DNA of 64,000 nucleotides from Planctomycetota bacterium. Its GTDB lineage: Bacteria; Planctomycetota; JAJSAM01; JAJVHW01. Made by a program: the position numbers and the translations under genes. The stretch is taken from NCBI GenBank assembly GCA_021776825.1, contig JAJFFG010000038.1:62001-126000 (forward strand). Direction: 5' to 3'. Every line of letters starts with the position of its first letter. Positions within the stretch are counted from its first letter, which is position 1. The notes beneath the pieces were generated by a model that saw only the letters and a list, made by a program, of their open reading frames with translations, was not told where the DNA came from and searched no databases. Positions 2,617 to 35,654 of this stretch are shown here, piece after piece.

Positions 2617-2678
2617 CTAGCAGGCTGTCGCGCCAACCTGCGTGGCCCGTCGAGGCCGAAACTTCGACAGCCTGCTAG
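2617..2678. repeat. Solitary 62-bp CTAG-bounded hairpin, same as the right end of the IS at 32.7-34.3 kb
   Basis: The sequence opens CTAGCAGGCTGTCG and closes CGACAGCCTGCTAG, a near-palindrome. Its interior (CGCCAACCTGCGTGGC) matches the right end hairpin of the IS1182-like element (34274-34335) with only a few substitutions and in the same orientation. No transposase lies here, so it is a solo end or miniature derivative. Its rightmost CTAG supplies the TAG stop of the adjoining kinase fragment on the minus strand. Confidence 0.85.
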
Positions 2679-3027
2679 GCAGACAACGCGGTCGCCAACT
2701 CGCCCATCGTGATCCGGCGCTCGGCGGGATCGGGCGCGAGAGCCTGGACGAGGAGGCCGCGATAGCGTTCAGGGATCTTGCTCGTCAGATCGGTTCGCTC
2801 GTTCTCTCGCACCATGCGCAGGATGTCGGGAATGGATCGCCCGTCGAACGCGCGCTGACCGCCGTCAGTTCCGTCGGACACACCAGCGAGAAGTCGCGCG
2901 GGTAGAAGATGACCGCCAGCCACCGCCCCCGATGGGACGAGAGCCGCTCACGGCCATGACCGTCGCTCATCACCGACCGCAGATCGAAGTCCGGGGCCGG
3001 GGAGCCGATGCGGGGAAGTCCTGACAT
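2675..3027 (-). pseudogene. Remnant: peroxiredoxin N-terminus joined out of frame to a Ser/Thr kinase C-terminus
   Basis: From the ATG at 3027 one frame reads GSPAPDFDLRS, then WLAVIFYPRDFSLVCPTEL, a peroxiredoxin/AhpC start including the peroxidatic Cys. This breaks off after TAVSAR. In another frame from about 2850 the sequence reads SIPDILRMVRENERTDL, then IPERYRGLLVQALAPDPAERRITMGELATAL, typical of the last helices of a Hanks-type protein kinase. About 125 codons of redoxin and most of a kinase are missing, so this is a deletion scar from one fused gene or two neighbours. The stop codon comes from the solitary IS-end hairpin. It is not expected to be functional. Confidence 0.75.
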
Positions 3028-3039
3028 ATCCGCGGACGG

Positions 3040-3061: not shown

Positions 3062-3177
3062 TCCGCCGGTATCGGTCACCCGTATCACTCACCAGGCGTC
3101 ACGCGCGGGGCGGTACGATCGCGCGTTCCCGTGCCGGAGAGGGATCGACCGCGCGCGAGAGGGTGCCTCCGAACTCC

Positions 3178-6100
3178 ATGACCAGCCGTCGCCTCATCCT
3201 CCTGCTGCCCATCCTCCTGTTCGCTCTCGTCGGCGGAGCCCTGTTCCTCGTGCTGGGGGCGGACGACTCCGATCCCGGCACTCCGAACGACGAGCAGACC
3301 GCCGTGCGCCCGCGCGACGGACCGGACGACGGTCCCACCGACGATGCGACCGCGGCCAGGCGTGCTCAGCGCCCCGGCAGTGTTGCGGGGGTTGTGCGGC
3401 GTTTCGTCGATCGCTCACCGGTGATCGGCCACCGCGTCGAGCTGACGACCGCCGAGGGCGCGACCCTCACCGCAACGACGGGCGAGGACGGGTCGTTCGT
3501 GTTCCCGAGCGTGCCTCCGGGCGGACCGAACGAAGTGCGCGTGCCGACCGACGCGTTCGCTCCCGTCGCGGTCCCCGGCCTCACGGTCGTGACCTCGCAG
3601 CGTCTCGACCTCGGCACACTCTGGCTCGCGGCGGGCGTCCCGGTCGTCGTCGAGGTCAAGACGTTCTCAGGTGAGCCGCTTCCCGGCGCCAGCGTCCGCG
3701 CATTCGTCACGGGACCGGGCACATCCACCTTCGACACGCCATTCGACCCACCCGCGGTCGCCACCGCGGTGTCCGACGGCAACGGGCACGCCACGTTCGC
3801 CGGCCTCCCGCCTGGCACGTGGACGCTCACCGCCGAGCGGTCGGGTTACGCCCGGCGGGGACTCATCGAACGGCGCGTTCGTGCCGAGGTTCCCGAGGAG
3901 CGTTTCCAGATCGCGCTGGAGAACGGCTACCGGCTGACCGGGCGCATCCTCGATCCGGAGGGACAGCCCGTGCCGCTCGCGCCGGTGCTCGCCATCCGGC
4001 GTACGCTCGTCAACAACACGAGCACGTCACCGCTCGCGCTGCGCACGACGACGGACGAGAACGGCCGGTACGTCTTCGAAGCGCTGCCCGCGGCCGACGT
4101 CGTCCTCTGGGCGGGCTGGCCCGGCGAGCGACTCGCGGTGCTCGCCGCCATTCGACTCCCGGGCGTGCGCGAGCTCGACATCGTGCTCTCTCGCGGAGGG
4201 CGCTTCGAAGGGCGCGTCGTCAACGACGAGGACGGCTCCCCCATCGTCGGAGCCAAGGTCTCCTGCGAGCTCGAGGTGCTCGGCGCGTTCAGCCTGTCGT
4301 TCGACGCGATCACAGACGCCGACGGCCGCTGCGCGCTCGATTTCCCGATGCCGGGACGGCTGACCTCGGCGAGCGCGACGTCGCCCGGGCACCTCGGCGG
4401 GACCTTCGACCTCGGCCATGAGAGCGCGGTCGAGCTACCGACCGGCATCGTCACACAGCGCGAAGTGCGCATGAAGGCCGGGACGATCGTCAGCGGCACC
4501 GTCATGGGCCCCGACGGACCCGTCGTCAACGCGAATGTCGGCGCGACAAATCCATCGTGGTGGTTCGCAACGCAGACCGATTCGGCGGGCCGCTACACGC
4601 TGCCGGCGCTGCCGCGTGAGACGTTCTGCCTGCTGGTCAATGTGACCGGGTACGTGCAACCGAATCGCCCCTCCAATCCGGACAACTCCGTGTCCACCGG
4701 CACGACGCCCCCGGAGATGTTCGCGGACGCGAAGTCGGGAGCCCCGGTCACCGTGGACCTGCGGGTCGAGCGGAGCGGGCGAGTGCGCGGCCAGGTCGTC
4801 TCACTGGCCGACGCGAAGCCGATCGCCGGCGCACGCGTCACTGTCGACGGCCGCGCCGAGGCCACCGTGATGACCGACGCCGAGGGCCGCTTCGAGGCGG
4901 ACGGTCCGCAGCCCGGTGAAAGCGCCTGGCTCGCTGTCGAGGCCGAGGGCTACCGAGCATTCAGCGAGAGCTTCGAGACGTCGGCGAACCCAGACGAGGC
5001 CGCCGATCACGTGATGCGACTCCTCCCAGCGCTGCGCGTCACGGGCATCGTACGCACCGACGACGGCAGTCCACTGGAAGGCGCCTACGTCCAGGTGATG
5101 ACGTTCGACAGTTCGATCTCCGACCCGACGCAGGACGAGTGGAACTGGCTGGAGGGCGAGCGCCTTCCTGTCGCGACCGACGGAACGTTCGACCATTTGG
5201 TCTCGGCGGTCAGCGACACGATGATCGTGCGCGCGACAGCGGTAGGACGTCGGCGCGCCGACTCGGGCGCGCGACACGTGGACGCGAACGATCCGCGCAT
5301 CGACGTCGAGCTCGTGCTCGAAGCGGGACTCTGGCTCTCGGGCCGCGCCGTGACGTTCGAGGGCGATCCGGTGTCGGGCGCGCGGGTGCAGGCCTCGCCG
5401 GTGGCCGCGGGATTGGGGGCCGACAACCTCTCGTACCCCGGCGCCTGGGGGCCACCGATCGTGGGCGTCACGGACGACGACGGACGCTTCATGCTGAGCG
5501 GGCTCGAGAACGAGCGCTACGTGCTGCTCGTCTCGGCGGAGCACTTCCTGCCCGGGCGCATCGCGGTCGACCTGCCGGACCCACCCGACGTCGTGGTCGA
5601 ACTGATCGAGTCGCGAGAGATCACCGGACGCGCGGTCTACACCGACGGCGAACCGGTGGTCGGCGGCGAGCTCCATGCTCACCGCATCGATGCCTCGGGC
5701 GCGAACCACGCGGGGGAGACGCGGACCTCGGCCGACGGGAGTTTCGTGCTGTCGTTCCTTCAGACGGGCACGCACAGACTGACGCTCCAGGCGTCACCGG
5801 AGTCGCCGCAGAACGTGGTGACCACCCTGGTCGACGGCATTGCCGCCGGCGCCACGGACGTCCTGATCGAGGCGACGTACGGCTCTCCGATCACCGGCAT
5901 CGTGCTGCTCCCCGACGGCGAACCGGCCAAGGGCGATGCGATGGTTCGCGCATGGATCGGCGACGAGCAGATCGCGTGGGACAACGCCGACGACGAGGGC
6001 CGCTTCGAGTTGCTCGGCCTTGCGCCCGGCGACGTGCGCCTGACGATCGAGAGCGACTCGATGTTCGGCACCGGTTCGGTCGAACAGCGCGGCGTCCCCG

Positions 6101-6900
6101 CCGGGTCGGCCGACCTCACGATCCAGCTTCCGACGCCGAGCGCGACGCGCGGGCGAGTCATCGACCCCGACGGCAACCCGATCTCGGGTGTCGGCATCAT
6201 GTTCCTGCCGAAGGAGGCGGTCGATCAGGGCGTCACGCTCTTTCAGGTCAACACGCAGACAGAAGAGGACGGCACGTTCTCGGTCCATGCGATCGCGGGG
6301 GCGCGCTATCGCGCGGTCATGCCGTGGGACGATCGGTACACGCTCGAACGGGGTCTCGTGGTCGTCGGTGGCACCGGCGGGCTATCGCTGAACGCGATGC
6401 TCGGTGAGACGATCCGCGGCCGTGTCGTGTCGCCGGACGGAGAGTCGGTCCCGGAGGCATGGGTCACCGCGTCCGGCGAGCACGCTGCGCGCGGGACCCG
6501 TGCCAACGCCTCTGGTGAGTTCGAGCTCACGGGCCTGCACGAGGGCCAGTCGTACACGTTGAGTGTGAGCGCGGACGGCTGGATCAGCCCGGAGAACGTG
6601 CGCGCCGATGCGGGCGCGCGGGGCGTCTCGCTGCATCTCGAGCGCGGGCTACCCTTCGGCGGCCGCGTGGTCGATGGCGACGGCCGTGCGATGTCGCAGT
6701 GCGTCGTCCAGCTGGAACGCCGCGACGGCAACTGGTCGTCGAGCGTGTGGTGCGATGAGAACGGGACGTTCCGCATGGAGAACCAGCGCGCCGGTGAGTA
6801 CGACGTGACGGTCCTCGCCACCGCGACCGGCACGACCTACACGTGCGGCCGCTACAAGGCCGGCGACACCGAAGCCGTCCTCCGCTGCGTCGGTCAATAG
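3178..6900 (+). CDS. Large surface protein with about 13 CarboxypepD_reg-like repeats
   Basis: 1240 aa from the ATG at 3178; a GTG at 3163 is the alternative start. The N-terminus MTSRRLILLLPILLFALVGGALFLVLG is a signal anchor, followed by an acidic Pro/Asp linker. The rest is a string of roughly 80-100-aa beta-sandwich units, each with a G.V.D.DG.P..GA.V core. Examples are GRILDPEGQPV, GRVVNDEDGSPIVGAKV, GIVRTDDGSPLEGAYV, GRVIDPDGNPISGVGI and GRVVSPDGESVPEAWV. I count about 13. Such domains usually serve as stable extracellular scaffolds or binding modules. No catalytic domain is visible. It is one of four such proteins in the window. Confidence 0.88.
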   Translation: MTSRRLILLLPILLFALVGGALFLVLGADDSDPGTPNDEQTAVRPRDGPDDGPTDDATAARRAQRPGSVAGVVRRFVDRSPVIGHRVELTTAEGATLTATTGEDGSFVFPSVPPGGPNEVRVPTDAFAPVAVPGLTVVTSQRLDLGTLWLAAGVPVVVEVKTFSGEPLPGASVRAFVTGPGTSTFDTPFDPPAVATAVSDGNGHATFAGLPPGTWTLTAERSGYARRGLIERRVRAEVPEERFQIALENGYRLTGRILDPEGQPVPLAPVLAIRRTLVNNTSTSPLALRTTTDENGRYVFEALPAADVVLWAGWPGERLAVLAAIRLPGVRELDIVLSRGGRFEGRVVNDEDGSPIVGAKVSCELEVLGAFSLSFDAITDADGRCALDFPMPGRLTSASATSPGHLGGTFDLGHESAVELPTGIVTQREVRMKAGTIVSGTVMGPDGPVVNANVGATNPSWWFATQTDSAGRYTLPALPRETFCLLVNVTGYVQPNRPSNPDNSVSTGTTPPEMFADAKSGAPVTVDLRVERSGRVRGQVVSLADAKPIAGARVTVDGRAEATVMTDAEGRFEADGPQPGESAWLAVEAEGYRAFSESFETSANPDEAADHVMRLLPALRVTGIVRTDDGSPLEGAYVQVMTFDSSISDPTQDEWNWLEGERLPVATDGTFDHLVSAVSDTMIVRATAVGRRRADSGARHVDANDPRIDVELVLEAGLWLSGRAVTFEGDPVSGARVQASPVAAGLGADNLSYPGAWGPPIVGVTDDDGRFMLSGLENERYVLLVSAEHFLPGRIAVDLPDPPDVVVELIESREITGRAVYTDGEPVVGGELHAHRIDASGANHAGETRTSADGSFVLSFLQTGTHRLTLQASPESPQNVVTTLVDGIAAGATDVLIEATYGSPITGIVLLPDGEPAKGDAMVRAWIGDEQIAWDNADDEGRFELLGLAPGDVRLTIESDSMFGTGSVEQRGVPAGSADLTIQLPTPSATRGRVIDPDGNPISGVGIMFLPKEAVDQGVTLFQVNTQTEEDGTFSVHAIAGARYRAVMPWDDRYTLERGLVVVGGTGGLSLNAMLGETIRGRVVSPDGESVPEAWVTASGEHAARGTRANASGEFELTGLHEGQSYTLSVSADGWISPENVRADAGARGVSLHLERGLPFGGRVVDGDGRAMSQCVVQLERRDGNWSSSVWCDENGTFRMENQRAGEYDVTVLATATGTTYTCGRYKAGDTEAVLRCVGQ

Positions 6901-27128: not shown

Positions 27129-30100
27129 GTGGCCGGAGCACTCCTCGTCCCGGCGCTGAGCGGCTTCGCGGGAGAGGACGGTGTCCTCGCTCGCGACGGG
27201 GACCGCCTCAGCACCGAGCGGACGTCCGGCGACACCGACGACTTCGACATCGACCTCTCCGAAGGTGGCAGCCTCTCCGTCAAGCTCACGGCCGACCGGC
27301 GCTCGAGCCTCGTCCCGGAGATGACGCTGTTCCGCCCGGACGGCGTCGAAGCCGACATCGCGGACTTCCTGAAGAAGAGCGGTACGCAGAAGCCCCAGCT
27401 CAAGCGCTTCACACCAGCGAGCGGCGAGACGGGGAGATGGACGCTTCGCGTCGGTGGAGTCGGAGAGGGCGCGTACACGATCCAGATCGGGGTCGCGGCC
27501 CCGACAAGCTCGAAGACGAAGGGACTCGTCGTCCCCGCAGGCGGCACCGCGCGGGTCGAGGTCACGGCCGACGACGCCGCGCTGCTGACCGCCCGCGTGA
27601 AGCGCAAGGACGGGCCGGATCTGACCGGCGCGCGGCTCCTCCGGCCGGACGGAAGTCTGCTCCCGGACTCCGGCCAGGCGTTCACCGCGAAGGGCAAGTC
27701 GCTCTCGGTGAAGAAGCTGCCCCTCGCGGGTGGGTTCGGACGCTACGTCCTCGAGCTGACCGGCGCAGCCGACGCCGACACCGTCGTCGACGTGACGACC
27801 AAGGTGAAGGCGGCGAAGATCCGGCGCCGCAAGGAGACGTTGCCGCCCGAGGGTCGGCTGACGCGGGCATCCCGCTCGGTCGTGAAGCAGCAGGACTCAG
27901 CGCTCGTCATCGACCTGGCCGGCTCGGACATCCTGCCGGGTTCGACGGTCGCGTTCGAGGGTGAGGGCATCACCGTTCGTGGGGTCGAGATCACGAGCCC
28001 ATCGTCGATCCGCGCGACGATCGACGTGGCGTCCGACGCACCCTATGGTCCGCGCGGGGTCTCCGTGCGTCCCCCACCGCTGCTCGGTGAGGTGTTCCGT
28101 CTGCGCGAGGCGTTCGACGTCCACGCGCCGGATCCGGCGGTGGCATTCTTCTCCCCGTCCACTCTGCGCCAGGGCGATCTGAACGTCGCCGTCAACGTGC
28201 TGGGGACCGCGTTCCGCGACGGCGGGGCGCTGTCCGTCTCCGGCGCGGGAGTCACCGTCGGCGCGACCAGCGTGCTCTCGGCCTCGATGGTGCGGGTCGA
28301 GCTCTCGACCGCGATCGACGCTCCAACGACGTCGCGCACGGTGACCTGGCGCCAGCCCGAGGAAGGTGGCGGCGCGAGCACGACGGCGTTCCTGCCGCTG
28401 GCGGTCGCCAACCCAACCCCCGTGCTGACCTCGCTCGAGCCGGCTCGGCTCGGACGTGGCGACGTCGCCGTGATCGTGACGTTGCGTGGCGACCACTTCC
28501 GCGAGGGCGGTTCCGTGACGATGGGCGACGGCGTGACCGTCGAGGGCGGCACGTTCGCAAACGCCGGTCGCTTCCGCGTCAGCGTGACCGTCGACGAGGA
28601 CGCGACGCTCGGTATGCGCGACGTGACGTACACCCAGCCGGCGTCGGGAGGCGGCGCAGCGACGACGTTCGCGGACGGCCTGCTGATCGAGGCCCCGGCG
28701 CCAACGATCACCTCCGTGACTCCCACGTCAATGACGCGCGGCGAGGGACCAACTCTCGTGACGGTGACAGGTGCGGACTTCGAGAACGGGGGAGTGATCT
28801 CGATCGAGGGCGTCGACCTGACTGTCGGCGCGACGGAGTTCATCGACGGGACCACGGTCCGGGCTCCGGCAACCGTGAACTCCGGCGCGGCCTTCGGTGC
28901 GCGGCTCGTCAGCTTCACGCAGCCGACCTCGCTCGGAGGAGCCGTCGGCTTCGGCGGCTCCCTCGCGGTGCACGCCCACGCACCCACCGTCACGGCAATC
29001 TCGCCCAATCAGCTCGACCAGCGCACGAGCGGCACCGTCACGGTGACCGGCACGAACTTCACGACGCAAGGGGCGCTGTCGACCAGTGCTGCGGGTGTGA
29101 CATTCTCGAACCTCACATACCTCTCCGAGACCCAGGTCCGCGCCGACTTCGACGTCCCGTCGGATGCGCCGAGCGGGCTCCACGACGTGCAGTTCACGCA
29201 GTCCTCGGCCGCGGGTTCGGGCACGGCGACGCTGGTCGACGGGCTCGAGATCCTCGACACGCGCGTCCTCGTGACGTCGATCTCTCCGGAAGACTGGCTG
29301 ACCGGCGCCGCGCACTTCCGCGTGACGGTCATCGGCGAGCACTTCAACACCGGAACTGCGGTCTCGGCATCGGGCACAGGCGTCACCATCCACTCGGTCA
29401 CGGTCGTCTCATCCACTCAGCTCACGCTCGACGTCAGCGTGGCGTCGACCGCTGCACTCAGCGGCCGTGATCTGACGATCACGCCGGGACCGGACGGTCC
29501 TGATCCACGTACGTTCACGAACGCGATCACAACCGTCCCTGCCGACCCGACCGTCGTGTCGTTCAGCCACGTGGCGCTGGCCCGCGGGGCAAGCAGCGTC
29601 GCGGTGACGATTACGGGGACGAACTTCCGCACCGGCGACGCGCTGAGCGCGAGCGGCACGGGTGTCACGTTTGCGAGCGTCTCGATCGTGAGCCCCGAGC
29701 GAGTGACTGCGCTCGCCACAGTGACGAGTGGCGCGACGCTCGGAGCTCGCGACCTGACCATCTCGCACGCCACGTCGGCGGGTGGTCGCAGCGACACGCT
29801 GGCCGATGGCGTCGAGATCATCTCGGCCACGCCGACAATCACGTCGGCCAGTCCGAGTTCGATCGGTCGCGCTGGGAGCGGAGGTGCCACGCAGACCCTT
29901 CCGGTCCGCGTGACCGGCACGGGCTTCATGACCGGCGCGGCGCTCAGCGTCAGCAAGTTGACCGGTAGCGGACTCAGCGTCGTCAACGGCAGCGAACTCG
30001 TCGTGTCGAGCACGCTGCTGACCGCGACGCTCTCGATCGCTGGAACGGCCACGCCGGGGCTGTGGGACGCCAAGGTCTCGAACCCGAGTGCGCTCGGTGA

Positions 30101-32666
30101 CTCCGGGGCGTCGGGCAACGGGGCGATCGACGTGAAGACCGCGTCGACGCTCGTCGTGAACTCCGCAACCCCTTCGCCGGGCGCCGCATTCGGCGATGAG
30201 GTCGTGACCATTCGGGGCGGAGGATTCACGTCGGGCGCCATCGTCGATTTCGGAACGGTGCGCGCAAGCGGCGTGCACGTCCTCGACAGCCACACGCTGC
30301 TGGTCAGGGTTCCGGCGCCGACGTCGCCGTCGCGCACGCTCGAGACGCGCGTCAACGTCAAGGTGACGCTCGCCAGTGGCTCGAACGCCACGCTGCTCGG
30401 CGGCTACGCCTACGCCGCGGACACGGGATCGTTCCGCGTCGTGACGAGCTATCCCGCGCCGGATGCGACCGGCGTGACGCGGAGCCTCGTCCGCGCCGGC
30501 CTATTGCTCTCCGCACCGATCGACACCGCGACGGCAACGTATGACGGGAGCGCCGGTACGGGTCCGAGTTCGACGGGCTTGCGATGGTTCGAGGTGAACG
30601 GTTCGGGGGTAACGGGAGGCAGCATCGCGTTCGGCCCGAACGGTCGCTGGATCGTGTTCAAGCGCAACGCGGGTTCGCTGACGTCGTCGGGTTCGTACGC
30701 ACTCGGCGCGACCAGTGCCGTGCGCTCGACGAGTTCCAATCCGCTGCGGCCCGTCGTCGAAGACAGCAGCACCGTCGAACAGATCGCATTCGACGTCCAC
30801 GCGAGCGCCACCGACACCACCGCGCCGACGCTCTCGTCGATCAGCCCCGTGAGTGCGGCGACAGGCGTCGCGCCCAGCAGCGTCGTCACGCTCACGTTCT
30901 CGGAGGCCGTGGACCCGAGCACGCTCGCGGCGAACGTTCAGCTCGAGCTCGGCAACGGCACGATCGTCGCGTCGCGCGTCGACGTCTCGGACGACTGGGA
31001 CACGGTGACGCTGACGCCGGACACCGAGCTCGCGACGAGCACGGCGCACACGGTCCGCGTGAAGTCGGGCCTGCTCGACGCGAGCGGCAACGCGATCGTC
31101 GCGCTGACGCGTACGTTCACGACCGGAACAGGGGTCGACACGACGGCGCCGACCATCGTCGACGTCCAGGTCGCTGATCTTCGATCCGACATGGACGGCT
31201 CGGGCACGTACGTCAACGCGACGGGCGTCAACACCGCATTCGACAGCTACCTCGGTCGGTCCGGATGGCGCGTCGTCGTCACGTTCGCGGACGAGGGCGG
31301 CGCGGGGATCGACCCGTCCACGTTCTCGGCCAAGGCATCGGTCGCCGTCGGCACGGCAGCCGCCAACGCGGAGCTCGCCGCGCAGTTCGTCGTGACCCAC
31401 ACGCAGGCGTCGTGGCGCGTGCCCGCCACGTTCCAGTTCACGGCGGGCGAGAACGTGACGCTCACCTTCCTCGTGAAGGACAGAGCGGCCACACCGAACA
31501 CCTCGACTTCAACGGTCATCACCTTCGATGTCGTCGACAAGGACACCCTCGCCGCCGCCACCGTGGGCGGCGACCACGATCCAATGGATGCGCGCCGCAC
31601 CTGGCTCCTGCGCGGTGACTCGGACAACTACACCGCCACATTCCACGAGCTCGCCGACAACGTGGTGACTCCAGCCGATGAGCGTGACCGCGGCGTAACG
31701 ACGACGCTGGGCGGCAACGGCATTCGCGATGTGCAGGAGGCCCTGGAGCTCGTCGGACTCAACTCCGGCAGCATGACGACGGCCGCAGCCGCGACCGTCA
31801 GTGGCACGAATCGCGGCACCAACGACATCGCCTACACGCTGTTCATGCGGTCCCACCGAGCCGCCGTGCGCGAGCGCTTCCGCATCGACGCCGACGGCAC
31901 GCGCGACGCTTCGTCACCGGACATCGAGTTCCTGATCGAGGGCGAGCAGGGATCGTTGAGCTCGCCACCGCTGTGGTCGACGACGAATGCGCAGACCAGC
32001 ACGCGCCCGTTCTCCGAGATGACCCTCGGCGGAACCGCCGGGGCCGACACGTCGCAGTTCGGACTGTCGAACTCCGTGCTCGGCCAGGCCTGGCTCGATC
32101 CGCGCAATCGGGTCGAGGTCGCGAACATCAATGACGGCACCAACAACGCGACCGGCGTGTACATGATCCACTATCTCGACTTCGAGCTGCCGAGCACGGG
32201 CCGCCTGCGCACGGAGGTGGCGGACCGCTTCCTGACGCTCTGGGGCGGCACGCCGCTGGGCGAGCACGCGAGCGACGACGACGTGCTCGCGGGGACGTTC
32301 GACCGCACGACCAGCACGAACACGACTCACAATGCGCGCTACGACGACATCATGGACGGCATCGACTTCGTGGCGCTCCTGGTCAGTTCAACGACCGCTC
32401 ATGAGGTCGGACACTCGATCGGTCTCGTCGCTGTGGGAGCCCCGAAGACTGGCCTGTTCGGCGGCGCGCACGAGAACAACACGTTCACCGAAGCGACGTC
32501 GATCTCGCCCAACACGAGTGCGCATCTGAACGTGATCGGTCCCGAGGTCATGGCCGCCGTCGCCGATCCGACCGCCGACACGGCAACGGGGTCTGCACTG
32601 GCACGCTTCAACCGAATGATCCAAGCCTGGATGCTCGGCCGACTGATGCACGACGAGGGGAAGTAG
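27129..32666 (+). CDS. Giant secreted protein, tandem paralogue 2 (metzincin-like C-terminus); start uncertain
   Basis: Colinear with the preceding gene over its whole length: the same N-terminal module (DTDDFDIDLSEGGSLSVKL), about nine IPT/TIG-like units, a Big_5-like domain (ISPVSAATGVAPSSVVTLTF), then TAHEVGHSIGL and GPEVMAA. The proteins differ throughout, so the duplication is old. The GTG at 27129 falls inside the hydrophobic core of the signal peptide (GLLVAGALLVPALSGFAG) and leaves no basic n-region. The frame is open back to the stop at 26997 but has no ATG, GTG or TTG there. A GGAGG at 27040-27044 precedes an in-frame ATC at 27051. The start is thus unresolved. Confidence 0.82.
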   Translation: MAGALLVPALSGFAGEDGVLARDGDRLSTERTSGDTDDFDIDLSEGGSLSVKLTADRRSSLVPEMTLFRPDGVEADIADFLKKSGTQKPQLKRFTPASGETGRWTLRVGGVGEGAYTIQIGVAAPTSSKTKGLVVPAGGTARVEVTADDAALLTARVKRKDGPDLTGARLLRPDGSLLPDSGQAFTAKGKSLSVKKLPLAGGFGRYVLELTGAADADTVVDVTTKVKAAKIRRRKETLPPEGRLTRASRSVVKQQDSALVIDLAGSDILPGSTVAFEGEGITVRGVEITSPSSIRATIDVASDAPYGPRGVSVRPPPLLGEVFRLREAFDVHAPDPAVAFFSPSTLRQGDLNVAVNVLGTAFRDGGALSVSGAGVTVGATSVLSASMVRVELSTAIDAPTTSRTVTWRQPEEGGGASTTAFLPLAVANPTPVLTSLEPARLGRGDVAVIVTLRGDHFREGGSVTMGDGVTVEGGTFANAGRFRVSVTVDEDATLGMRDVTYTQPASGGGAATTFADGLLIEAPAPTITSVTPTSMTRGEGPTLVTVTGADFENGGVISIEGVDLTVGATEFIDGTTVRAPATVNSGAAFGARLVSFTQPTSLGGAVGFGGSLAVHAHAPTVTAISPNQLDQRTSGTVTVTGTNFTTQGALSTSAAGVTFSNLTYLSETQVRADFDVPSDAPSGLHDVQFTQSSAAGSGTATLVDGLEILDTRVLVTSISPEDWLTGAAHFRVTVIGEHFNTGTAVSASGTGVTIHSVTVVSSTQLTLDVSVASTAALSGRDLTITPGPDGPDPRTFTNAITTVPADPTVVSFSHVALARGASSVAVTITGTNFRTGDALSASGTGVTFASVSIVSPERVTALATVTSGATLGARDLTISHATSAGGRSDTLADGVEIISATPTITSASPSSIGRAGSGGATQTLPVRVTGTGFMTGAALSVSKLTGSGLSVVNGSELVVSSTLLTATLSIAGTATPGLWDAKVSNPSALGDSGASGNGAIDVKTASTLVVNSATPSPGAAFGDEVVTIRGGGFTSGAIVDFGTVRASGVHVLDSHTLLVRVPAPTSPSRTLETRVNVKVTLASGSNATLLGGYAYAADTGSFRVVTSYPAPDATGVTRSLVRAGLLLSAPIDTATATYDGSAGTGPSSTGLRWFEVNGSGVTGGSIAFGPNGRWIVFKRNAGSLTSSGSYALGATSAVRSTSSNPLRPVVEDSSTVEQIAFDVHASATDTTAPTLSSISPVSAATGVAPSSVVTLTFSEAVDPSTLAANVQLELGNGTIVASRVDVSDDWDTVTLTPDTELATSTAHTVRVKSGLLDASGNAIVALTRTFTTGTGVDTTAPTIVDVQVADLRSDMDGSGTYVNATGVNTAFDSYLGRSGWRVVVTFADEGGAGIDPSTFSAKASVAVGTAAANAELAAQFVVTHTQASWRVPATFQFTAGENVTLTFLVKDRAATPNTSTSTVITFDVVDKDTLAAATVGGDHDPMDARRTWLLRGDSDNYTATFHELADNVVTPADERDRGVTTTLGGNGIRDVQEALELVGLNSGSMTTAAAATVSGTNRGTNDIAYTLFMRSHRAAVRERFRIDADGTRDASSPDIEFLIEGEQGSLSSPPLWSTTNAQTSTRPFSEMTLGGTAGADTSQFGLSNSVLGQAWLDPRNRVEVANINDGTNNATGVYMIHYLDFELPSTGRLRTEVADRFLTLWGGTPLGEHASDDDVLAGTFDRTTSTNTTHNARYDDIMDGIDFVALLVSSTTAHEVGHSIGLVAVGAPKTGLFGGAHENNTFTEATSISPNTSAHLNVIGPEVMAAVADPTADTATGSALARFNRMIQAWMLGRLMHDEGK

Positions 32667-32668
32667 CG

Positions 32669-32731
32669 CTAGCAGCCTGTCGGAGTTTCGGCGTCGCCGT
32701 GCGAGAGACCGCCGGCGCGACAGGCTGCTAG
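32669..32731. repeat. Left terminal hairpin of the IS1182-like element
   Basis: 63 bp. CTAGCAGCCTGTCG at the left pairs perfectly over 14 bases with CGACAGGCTGCTAG at the right. The interior (GAGTTTCGGCGTCGCCGTGC) is the inverted match of the right end's interior. Confidence 0.85.
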
Positions 32732-32787: not shown

Positions 32788-34148
32788 ATGAGAGAGAAGG
32801 CGTTTCGGGCGTGGGAAGTGGATCAGGTCTGGCTCTTCCCGCCGTCCGTGAGGGACTTCGTCCCCGATGGTCACCTCGCGCACTTCGTGCGCGACACGGT
32901 GCGCAACGACTTGGACCTGAGCGCGATCTTTGCGCGCTACAGCGGGCGCAACGGCTACCCGCCGTACCACCCGGCGATGATGGTCTCGCTGTTGCTCTAC
33001 TCGCTGTGCCGCGGCGTGTACTCCTCGCGCAAGATCGAGCAGGCGTGCGAGGAGCGCATCGACTTCATGGCGGTGACGGGCATGGCCAAGCCCGACCACA
33101 GCACGATCTGCGCATTCCGCGACGATCACCGGCACGCGCTTGCGGGGCTCTTCGTGGGAGTGTTGGCGCTGTGCCGCGACGCGGGCATCGCGAAGATGGG
33201 CCATGTGTCGCTCGACGGCACCAAGATCCGCGCCAACGCGTCGAAGCACAAGGCGATGAGTTACAAGCGGATGAAGAAGGCGGAGCCGGAGTTGGCCGCG
33301 GTCGTGGACGAGTGGCTCGCGCAGTCCGAAGCCACCGACACGAGCGAGGACGCGGAGCACGGGCCGGATCGCCGCGGTGACGAGATGCCGGCGCACGCGA
33401 TGGAGAAGGCGCGGCGGCTGGCACGTATCCAAGCCGCAGCGGCGCGTCTCGAGGCGGACGCGGAGGCCAAGGCAGAGCGCATTGCCGCCGAGCGCGCGGC
33501 GTGGGAGAAGGAGCACGGTCGCAAGCTGGGGGGCCCCAAGCCCAAGGCGCTCGACGGCGTGCCGGAGGACAAGGCGCAGAGCAACTTTACCGATCCCGAG
33601 AGCCGGATCATGAAGACGCACGACGGCTACCAGCAGTGCTACAACGCGCAGGCGGCCGTGGATGCGGAGAGCCAGGTGATCGTGGCGGCGACGCTCACCA
33701 ACTCTTCCAACGACAGCGCGCAACTTGAGCCGCTCGTCCAGGAGATCGAGGCGCACGCGGGCCGGGCGCCGCGCGAGATCTCAGCGGACGCGGGGTACTG
33801 CTCCGAGCTGAACCTCGCGACACTCATCGAGCACGGCATCCGCGGCTACGTGGCAACGGGACGTCAGAAGCACGGGACGTCGAGCGCCACGGGCGAGAAG
33901 GAGCCGAAGGGGCCACTGACGCGGGCGATGCGGCGAAGACTCCGTCAAGGCGGCTGGCGGAGCCGCTACCGATACCGCAAGCACACGGTGGAACCGGTCT
34001 TCGGGCAGATCAACCCGTCTTCGCGCAGAGCAAAGAGTGCCGAGGCTTCCGGCGCTTTCTGCACCGAGGGCTCGAGAAGGTCTCGGCGGAGTGGACCATG
34101 CTCTGCACGGCGCACAACCTGCTGAAACTGGCCGCTGCGAGGGCGTGA
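32788..34148 (+). pseudogene. IS1182-family transposase disrupted by a 20-bp imperfect tandem duplication
   Basis: From the ATG at 32788 the frame gives a DUF772-type N-terminus (FRAWEVDQVWLFPPSVRDFVPDGHLAHF, YHPAMMVSLLLYSLCRGVYSSRKIE) and then the DDE domain. DDE segments are HVSLDGTKIRANASKHK, AQAAVDAESQVIVAA, ADAGYCSELN and TVEPVFGQI. After VFGQI the frame shifts. The conserved ending KECRGFRRFLHRGLEKVSAEW, then TMLCTAHNLLKLAAARA, is found in another frame ending with TGA at 34146-34148. Between the two lie 20 extra bases. GTCTTCGGGCAGATCAA and GTCTTCGCGCAGAGCAA stand as a tandem pair (15 of 17 identical), so PVF.Q is encoded twice. The 445-aa track ORF ends in junk at 34125. Confidence 0.88.
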
Positions 34149-34273: not shown

Positions 34274-34335
34274 CTAGCAGGCTGTCGCGCCAACCTGCGT
34301 GGCACGGCGAGGCCGTAACTCCGACAGCCTGCTAG
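34274..34335. repeat. Right terminal hairpin of the IS1182-like element
   Basis: 62 bp, CTAGCAGGCTGTCG at the left and CGACAGCCTGCTAG at the right. It nearly equals the solitary copy at 2617-2678. The 125 bases between the transposase and this end hold no gene. Confidence 0.85.
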
Positions 34336-34571
34336 CCCGGACTATTCATGAGGCTCGCGCACTCCGTGACAACTGTCGTCCGGGAGTACAGGAGCAGCCT
34401 GGATGCGGGGGCCACGGCACGCGCAGAGAGGCCCGTCCTGAGCGAGGACAGAACGTCGAGATCAAGGCGCGCCGACAACTGCGACGCCATTCCGTCTCCG
34501 AGGAGGCGCAACGCCGAGATCGGCGGTCTGGACCGCTCAGGTGTGTGAGTCGTCATGAATAGTCCGGGCTA
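34333..34571. mobile_element. 239-bp non-autonomous element with perfect 19-bp inverted ends
   Basis: The ends TAGCCCGGACTATTCATGA (34333-34351) and TCATGAATAGTCCGGGCTA (34553-34571) are exact inverse copies, each bordered by CTAG (34332-34335 and 34569-34572). The 200-base interior has no credible gene; the two short ORFs cross the ends. If CTAG is the target duplication, the true inverted repeat is CCCGGACTATTCATGA. The left CTAG is shared with the IS1182-like right end. The right CTAG supplies the TAG stop of the channel gene on the minus strand. It is most likely a MITE mobilised by an unrelated transposase elsewhere. Confidence 0.82.
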
Positions 34572-35609
34572 GGAGCCGAAGCCGCCGGCGATCCCGTCGC
34601 GCAGCACCGGGATGGTGACCAGCGGCAGCAGCACGATCAGCGTCGTCCCGCTCTGCAGCTCGACGTCCGGACCGGGGTTGTACTCGTAGCGGCCGGTCGT
34701 CTGATCACGGATGGCCAGGATCAAGGCGTCGGTGTTCTCGCGGATGCCGGCGTCACGCAGTCGGCGCCCGACCAGAGGCGACCGCGGCGGCACGCTGACC
34801 TCTTCGATCCGGAGGTTCTTGTCACGCTCGCGCAGCATCTCGTCGAGGAACTGGGTGACATGCGGCCGCAGCACCTCGTTCGCGAGTCGGGACCCGCCGA
34901 GGCGCGCGGTCGAGACAACCTCGTTCGCGCCGGCCGTGATGAGCTTGTCGCGCGCCCGCGCACCGACGCTGCGTGAGATGATCCGGAGCTTCGGGTTCGC
35001 CCCACGTGCCGTGACCACGACGAACAGGTTGTCCTTGTCCTCCGTCAGGGCCGAGACGAGGGACTTGGCACGCTCGACACCGGCGGCCAGCAGGATGTCG
35101 TCCTCGGTCGCATCCCCGACCACGAAGGGAAACGTCTCGCCGGTCTTCTCGTTCTGGAGCGCCTGGAGGCGGTCCCCGTCGAGGTCCACCGCAATGAACG
35201 GTGTGCCGGTCGCCACGAGCTCGGTGACCACGTGCACGCCGGTGCGGCCGACACCGCAGACGATCACGTGCTGTTCCAGCGCGTCGATGTTCTTCTGCAT
35301 TCGCCTCTTCCTCAGCACACCCCGCAAGTCGTTCTCCAGGATCAGTGCCGTGAACGAGGAGATGAAGTACAGGAACGTACCGATCCCCGCGATGAGCAGG
35401 ATGCTGGTGAACAGGCGCGAGTCCGGAGTGGACTCCCAGCCCTCGAGCGACTCGAGACCGAGCGTGGTGACGATCACGAGCGTCATGTAGACGCAGTCGC
35501 TGAACGCCCATCGTCCGTCGCCGATCATGTAGTAGCCGACGCTGCCGAACGCCAAGACGATCAGCAGGGCGATGAACGAGACGGTGAGCTGGCGGGTCAG
35601 GTCCTGCAC
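34569..35609 (-). CDS. Two-TM potassium-channel-like protein with cytoplasmic RCK (TrkA) domains
   Basis: 346 aa from the GTG at 35609 (AGGA about 8 bases upstream); the track's TTG start at 35648 is less likely. TM1 is LTVSFIALLIVLAFGSVGYYMI. A pore loop CVYMTLVIVTTLGLESLEG follows, then TM2 LLIAGIGTFLYFISSFTALIL. The RCK Rossmann domain begins HVIVCGVGRTGVHVVTEL and binds a nucleotide; an RCK_C-like end follows (PPRSPLVGRRLRDAGIRENTD). The selectivity filter reads TTLGLE instead of TVGYGD, so ion selectivity is uncertain. Its stop codon lies in the end of the 239-bp element. It is the last gene of a minus-strand cluster with the mutS-like and redoxin genes. Confidence 0.87.
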   Translation of the reverse strand: MQDLTRQLTVSFIALLIVLAFGSVGYYMIGDGRWAFSDCVYMTLVIVTTLGLESLEGWESTPDSRLFTSILLIAGIGTFLYFISSFTALILENDLRGVLRKRRMQKNIDALEQHVIVCGVGRTGVHVVTELVATGTPFIAVDLDGDRLQALQNEKTGETFPFVVGDATEDDILLAAGVERAKSLVSALTEDKDNLFVVVTARGANPKLRIISRSVGARARDKLITAGANEVVSTARLGGSRLANEVLRPHVTQFLDEMLRERDKNLRIEEVSVPPRSPLVGRRLRDAGIRENTDALILAIRDQTTGRYEYNPGPDVELQSGTTLIVLLPLVTIPVLRDGIAGGFGS

Positions 35610-35654
35610 AACGGAGATCCTACGGCGTCCGACGGCAGGCTCGCGCAACTAGCC

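Follow-up and report, generated by a model that had tools for sequence, protein, structure and literature searches.

The 62-base folding sequence at 2617-2678 of the analysed DNA (a stretch of 64,000 nucleotides, hereafter the window) has more than 100 copies in the genome and forms both ends of an IS1182-like element located in the same window. The hairpin population is best read as REP/REPIN-like repeats derived from a DDE-type IS. We consider it fairly probable that an IS1182-like DDE transposon with CTAG-bounded hairpin ends seeded miniature elements and then single hairpins, and that the copy at 2617-2678 is a single hairpin of the right-end (R) type.

The solitary hairpin lies on the plus strand and spans 62 nt from CTAG to CTAG. 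Its outer stem is formed by 14 perfect base pairs between a first arm, CTAGCAGGCTGTCG (2617..2630), which is found genome-wide, and a second arm, CGACAGCCTGCTAG (2665..2678), with CTAG at both feet. The single-strand DNA fold reached -21 kcal/mol with z = -5.5 and was equalled by 0 of 200 shuffles, which ruled out a chance or low-complexity hairpin; for the RNA hairpin, z was -2.59. Abundance of CTAG was also rejected as an explanation, because the tetranucleotide was under-represented in the window (26 vs 48 expected). The hairpin was identical at 58/62 positions to the right end of the IS (34274-34335) at a distance of 31.7 kb, and its second arm corresponded to the outer arm of that end in the same orientation (34322-34335). 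No transposase adjoined it, and no remnant of an element interior was detected on either side by the flank score. The initial annotation had reported a CTAG-bounded hairpin nearly identical to the right end of an IS1182-like element and without a transposase beside it, and all of this was borne out; the hairpin at the left end of the IS had been missed. An intrinsic terminator, composed of a stem and a U-tract, was rejected since no U-tract or terminator-like site was found at 2617-2678, and no Rfam family matched the hairpin.

A minus-strand frame ending ...ELATALSA is stopped by the TAG at 2675..2677 (-), and a modelled empty site with one CTAG retained the same stop. The frame had been described as a kinase fragment; the stop was confirmed, but Pfam gave no kinase match at E<=1. 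Just upstream of this frame, an AhpC/TSA peroxiredoxin fragment was seen in another frame at 2788-3039 (-), and the region around it looks like gene remnants. The neighboring 3163-6900 encodes a protein of 1245 aa that contains about ten carboxypeptidase-regulatory-like domains.

The parent element carries a transposase gene at 32788..34125 (+), whose product matched DUF772 (PF05598, 1.9e-16) and DDE_Tnp_1 (PF01609, 1.1e-12), the domain pair of the IS1182 family. A search of the own genome showed that this was the sole full-length copy in the assembly, accompanied by 11 fragments, which lay in miniatures where checked. Relative to the homolog of a sister genus, its reading frame changes near 34012. 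Since several contigs begin or finish inside elements, an intact copy of the transposase may be absent from the assembly. Both ends of the IS were hairpins with common 14-bp CTAG-ended arms: the left (L) hairpin of 63 nt at 32669..32731 and the R hairpin of 62 nt at 34274..34335, both given on the plus strand. The arms of L and R were one base apart (13/14 identical, in direct orientation) and the loops were different. The outer part of L aligned with the reverse complement of R as CTAGCAGSCTGTCGGAGTT.CGGC.TCG, thus the hairpins are the inverted terminal repeats of the IS, each of which is palindromic. A gene coding for a 1845-aa protein with choice-of-anchor Z repeats (27129-32666) stops 2 bp before the L hairpin.

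The IS is abutted by a second, unrelated repeat flanked by CTAG (34336..34568, +; CCCGGACTATTCATGAGG...), of which the right CTAG contains the stop codon of a TrkA-domain channel gene (Pfam, 34569-35648). This family, CTAG followed by CCCGGCCTATTCATGAGGCTCGCGCACTCC..., was represented at least 31 times in 1.9 Mb, and several of its copies adjoin the IS1182-like hairpins with a common CTAG. In-frame sides were found in 6/30 cases for the second family vs 62/134 for the hairpin elements (p 0.008).

When relatives were compared, the pattern of presence and absence indicated that the hairpin end is a property of this IS lineage. Distant transposase homologs (40-49%; Arthrobacter, Frankiales, and others) had related terminal repeats that follow a CTAG at each end; hairpin ends were not found in them. 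Hairpins were present at the IS of a genome of the same family (G001), whose transposase was 63% identical, and within the same order one genome (G006) possessed elements ending on either side in a hairpin of 61-65 nt and another (G008) possessed one copy with two hairpins. The hairpin ends in related genera of the order had the same arms but different loops. An exact-arm search of 59 genomes was positive, besides the own genome, only for G001 and G006. In sister genera, orthologous junctions were located with a chimeric C-terminal query, and no hairpins were found at the orthologous convergent gene pairs, indicating acquisition of the sites within this lineage rather than ancestral presence.

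These comparisons bear on the proposal that the hairpin is a REP-like sequence used by the IS, in other words, that a host regulatory or terminator element was captured by the IS as its ends. The REP-like position at gene ends, the conserved stem, and the hundreds of arms would fit such a capture. We nevertheless judge it highly improbable, because the loops of the IS-end hairpins in other genera track the IS and not the host site, the hairpins are absent at the orthologous junctions, no REP-type tyrosine transposase is near the hairpins, and the site has neither an Rfam family nor a U-tract terminator. The proposal was right about the REP-like form and position, but no pre-existing REPs are borrowed by the IS: in this genome as in related genera its ends are themselves the hairpins, and the orthologous junctions are bare.

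The arm CTAGCAGSCTGTCG gave 268 matches at <=1 mismatch in the 6.88-Mb assembly versus 32 for the reversed control, and at least 40 R-type and at least 40 L-type hairpin matches were present genome-wide, thus the hairpin is not limited to this site and the one IS. Copies were classified in a sample of 1.90 Mb, which was taken around known copies together with blind stretches and is hence centred on hairpins. The sample contained 50 L-R elements (one full IS and 49 internally deleted miniatures), one R-R element, about 27 truncated elements with a hairpin and interior on its inner side, and about 16 precise single hairpins without clear interior (10 R and 6 L; four ambiguous). In all 50 L-R elements, L preceded R in one orientation. 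Their interiors ranged from -4 bp, where two hairpins have a common CTAG, to 511 bp, in addition to the 1542 bp of the IS, and clustered near 262 and 182 bp; CTAG was found at both hairpin feet in most copies. The 49 miniatures had both IS ends as MITEs do, and because transposase fragments remain inside several of them, they are internal deletions of the IS. The copy at 2617-2678, on the other hand, has the R end and lacks L, and does not classify as a MITE. The earlier idea of a miniature element therefore applies to the numerous L-R pairs, whereas the single hairpin is further reduced.

Conservation of the stem was analyzed in 78 copies of R and 64 of L. Within its 14 bp, compensatory cells numbered 20 in R (shuffle maximum 8) and 20 in L (shuffle maximum 7), with a shuffle that leaves the relatedness among copies in place. 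The compensatory changes included the CTAG feet (GTAG...CTAC), with TAG kept on both sides. The compensatory changes across R and L copies speak for a hairpin that would be maintained, either through selection or through hairpin-templated repair.

For the position relative to genes, the elements were removed from the DNA with one CTAG kept, genes were called with a home-made crude codon-usage caller, and CTAG sites in the same sampled DNA (n=609) were used as the control. A stop codon was found within 12 bp of 59/67 elements vs 168/609 control sites (p 2e-22), and in 46 of the 59 the stop was inside the CTAG itself. A convergent junction at which neither stop was more than 12 bp away was occupied by 29/67 elements vs 16/609 control sites (p 3e-21), and only 2 of the 67 elements were inside genes. 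Among the single hairpins, 14/16 were at a stop and 10/16 at tight convergent junctions. The initial annotation had named many copies without transposase, located at gene 3ʹ ends and absent from close relatives, as support for a mobile miniature element, and each of these was found, the relatives compared being sister genera. In the 1.9-Mb sample, TAG was the stop codon of 572/1428 called genes, which seems high for a GC-rich, CTAG-poor genome.

The C-termini of genes ending at elements were natural, being within 2 residues of the ortholog in 10/14 cases, and in other genera about half of the outer element ends had a host frame running in frame into the TAG. At least five homologs had CTAG at both ends and unrelated flanks, which would fit a target-site duplication of CTAG. 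Given the natural C-termini and CTAG as the most likely target, the target CTAG probably contained the stop codon before insertion. The statement that the hairpin provides a stop codon thus describes the site correctly but probably does not give the cause of the stop. A flanking palindrome was rejected as the recognised target, because no excess complementarity was found between the two element flanks (59/300 shuffles as high).

After excision of the element, the gaps of convergent sites were -4 to 12 bp in 29/34 cases, and the median gap was 1 bp vs 98 bp. This extreme tightness exceeds what CTAG targeting alone explains; it may come from the choice of target, from selection, or from a spacer lost upon insertion. 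The insertion might replace the spacer (a terminator hairpin) between gene ends in the manner of IS1272, which would be compatible with either origin of the single hairpins discussed below. In favor of such a replacement, the excised gaps are narrow compared with the orthologous gaps in sister genera, which range from 0 to >100 bp, and the IS1182 family provides a precedent (PMC5678879, PMC4923244). We find it doubtful, however, since an in-frame TAG at natural C-termini in 10/14 cases is not expected from blind replacement, the flanks have no leftover complementarity, and some of the orthologous junctions are tight without an element (0, 1, 8, 9, and 12 bp).

As to the origin of the single hairpins, a deletion between arms is most likely, since L and R have palindromic arms that form direct repeats, and, judged from the sequences, the solitary hairpin is probably a remnant of a deletion between the arms common to L and R. 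Slippage or recombination between the first arms would remove L and the interior and leave exactly one R hairpin, and the same event between the second arms would leave one L hairpin. When the deletion between arms was performed in silico, it yielded precisely one flanked single hairpin. Single and paired hairpins were equally conserved (permutation p 0.94 and 1.0), and a solo R as a separate lineage was not supported by mean identity, as expected if the singles were derived from pairs. Abutting L-R hairpins with one CTAG (C86:89616-89736) are possible intermediates of the deletion. Of the origins suggested initially, a scar of excision is accordingly the favored one, in the form of a deletion between the common 14-bp arms and not of an excision by the transposase.

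The single hairpin might alternatively be mobile by itself, if the transposase cut at the inner and outer CTAG and moved a micro-element of 58-62 bp or swapped hairpins. Both arms resemble the element ends (CTAGCAGSCTGTCG), but the bases just inside the arms differ (CGCC at the inner arm vs GAGTT at the outer arm), which limits the match of the inner arm to the first 14 bases of the inverted repeat. A derived base (the T in ACTTCG) was found in exactly three R hairpins genome-wide, namely the window copy, C34:12211, and C74:68059. The three sites are unrelated, neither of the latter two is an ordinary L-R element, and C74:68059 occupies the place of an L hairpin. This common base, which was noticed post hoc and may have recurred, hints that single hairpins spread independently; it was counted as a hint only, because other R copies, with a GTCG context, also have T at this position. 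At two loci (C74:68059-68448, L130; C54:35280, L212), an inverted R-type hairpin stood in the place of L with an L-type interior beside it, which may be a hairpin swap or gene conversion; such L-to-R swaps would be expected from mobility but can also be produced by gene conversion. Tandem hairpins with one common CTAG occurred in two genera (L133, C86:89616-89736; L169, 1501-1616), in this genome and in G001, and IS1272, a member of the same family, replaces hairpins when inserting (PMC5678879, PMC4923244). As mean identity does not set the singles apart as a lineage, we regard independent mobility as unlikely.

The favored deletion from L-R elements would thus be part of the following sequence of events. 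The transposon would insert at CTAG with a preference for TAGs that are stops, by which the stop would be retained and the CTAG presumably duplicated. Internal deletion then produced miniatures made of an L hairpin, a short interior, and an R hairpin, and these would be reduced to single hairpins by the arm-to-arm deletion. Copies remain at gene ends, chiefly convergent ones, where a bidirectional RNA hairpin may be harmless or useful. A broader reading, which we hold to be quite improbable, is that the DDE transposase has a REP/REPIN-like system of its own, in which the hairpins serve as transposase ends, as 62-bp micro-elements that spread independently, and as stop/terminator modules preferring tail-to-tail junctions.

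Compared with known systems, the element resembles the IS1182 family in having DUF772 and DDE_Tnp_1, in its CTAG-ended homologs (Arthrobacter, Frankiales, and others), and in the interplay with palindromes, but differs in that its ends are themselves hairpins of 62-63 nt including CTAG. IS1272 of this family uses hairpins as insertion sites and takes their place (PMC5678879, PMC4923244). It differs from the present element in that, as reported, it targets unrelated hairpins and leaves no target duplication. MITEs of the IS1182 family related to ISMac2 in Methanosarcina acetivorans (PMC3852290) are likewise short L-R elements with full-length IS ends in many copies, whereas here interiors reach down to -4 bp, single-end copies are present, and the bias for stop codons is strong.

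The REP/REPIN sequences of RAYT (PMC3116915, PMC3733652) are similar in being short palindromes present as inverted doublets and singlets at convergent 3ʹ ends, with the TAG of the terminal tetranucleotide used as stop. Where genes converge, GTAG REPs adjoin the two 3ʹ ends, and the TAG stop often comes from the REP (PMC3733652); the hairpins described here were likewise extragenic, near 3ʹ ends (59/67) and at convergent junctions (29/67). They differ in having CTAG at both feet instead of GTAG at one, in the transposase, which is DDE and not HUH, and in the singlets, which are not more decayed than doublets, whereas REP singlets of Pseudomonas fluorescens SBW25 are more diverged than doublets (PMC3116915). 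A REP of a tyrosine transposase was excluded, because the genome had a single Y1_Tnp match above the cut-off and no hairpin was found in the 60 kb sampled around it.

In open-licence papers, we found no description of a comparable system in which a DDE transposase has hairpins as its own ends. The present system combines the theme of the hairpin-associated IS with that of the stop-supplying REP, with a DDE transposase. Both the strong preference for abutting stops and the compensatory stems in copies without transposase are measurable quantities, open to checking wherever a genome has such elements. Stop-supplying REP-like hairpins at convergent gene ends were known from the HUH transposases (RAYT); here they are built by a DDE transposon, which allows a test of whether transposase chemistry or host selection on gene ends gives rise to the pattern.
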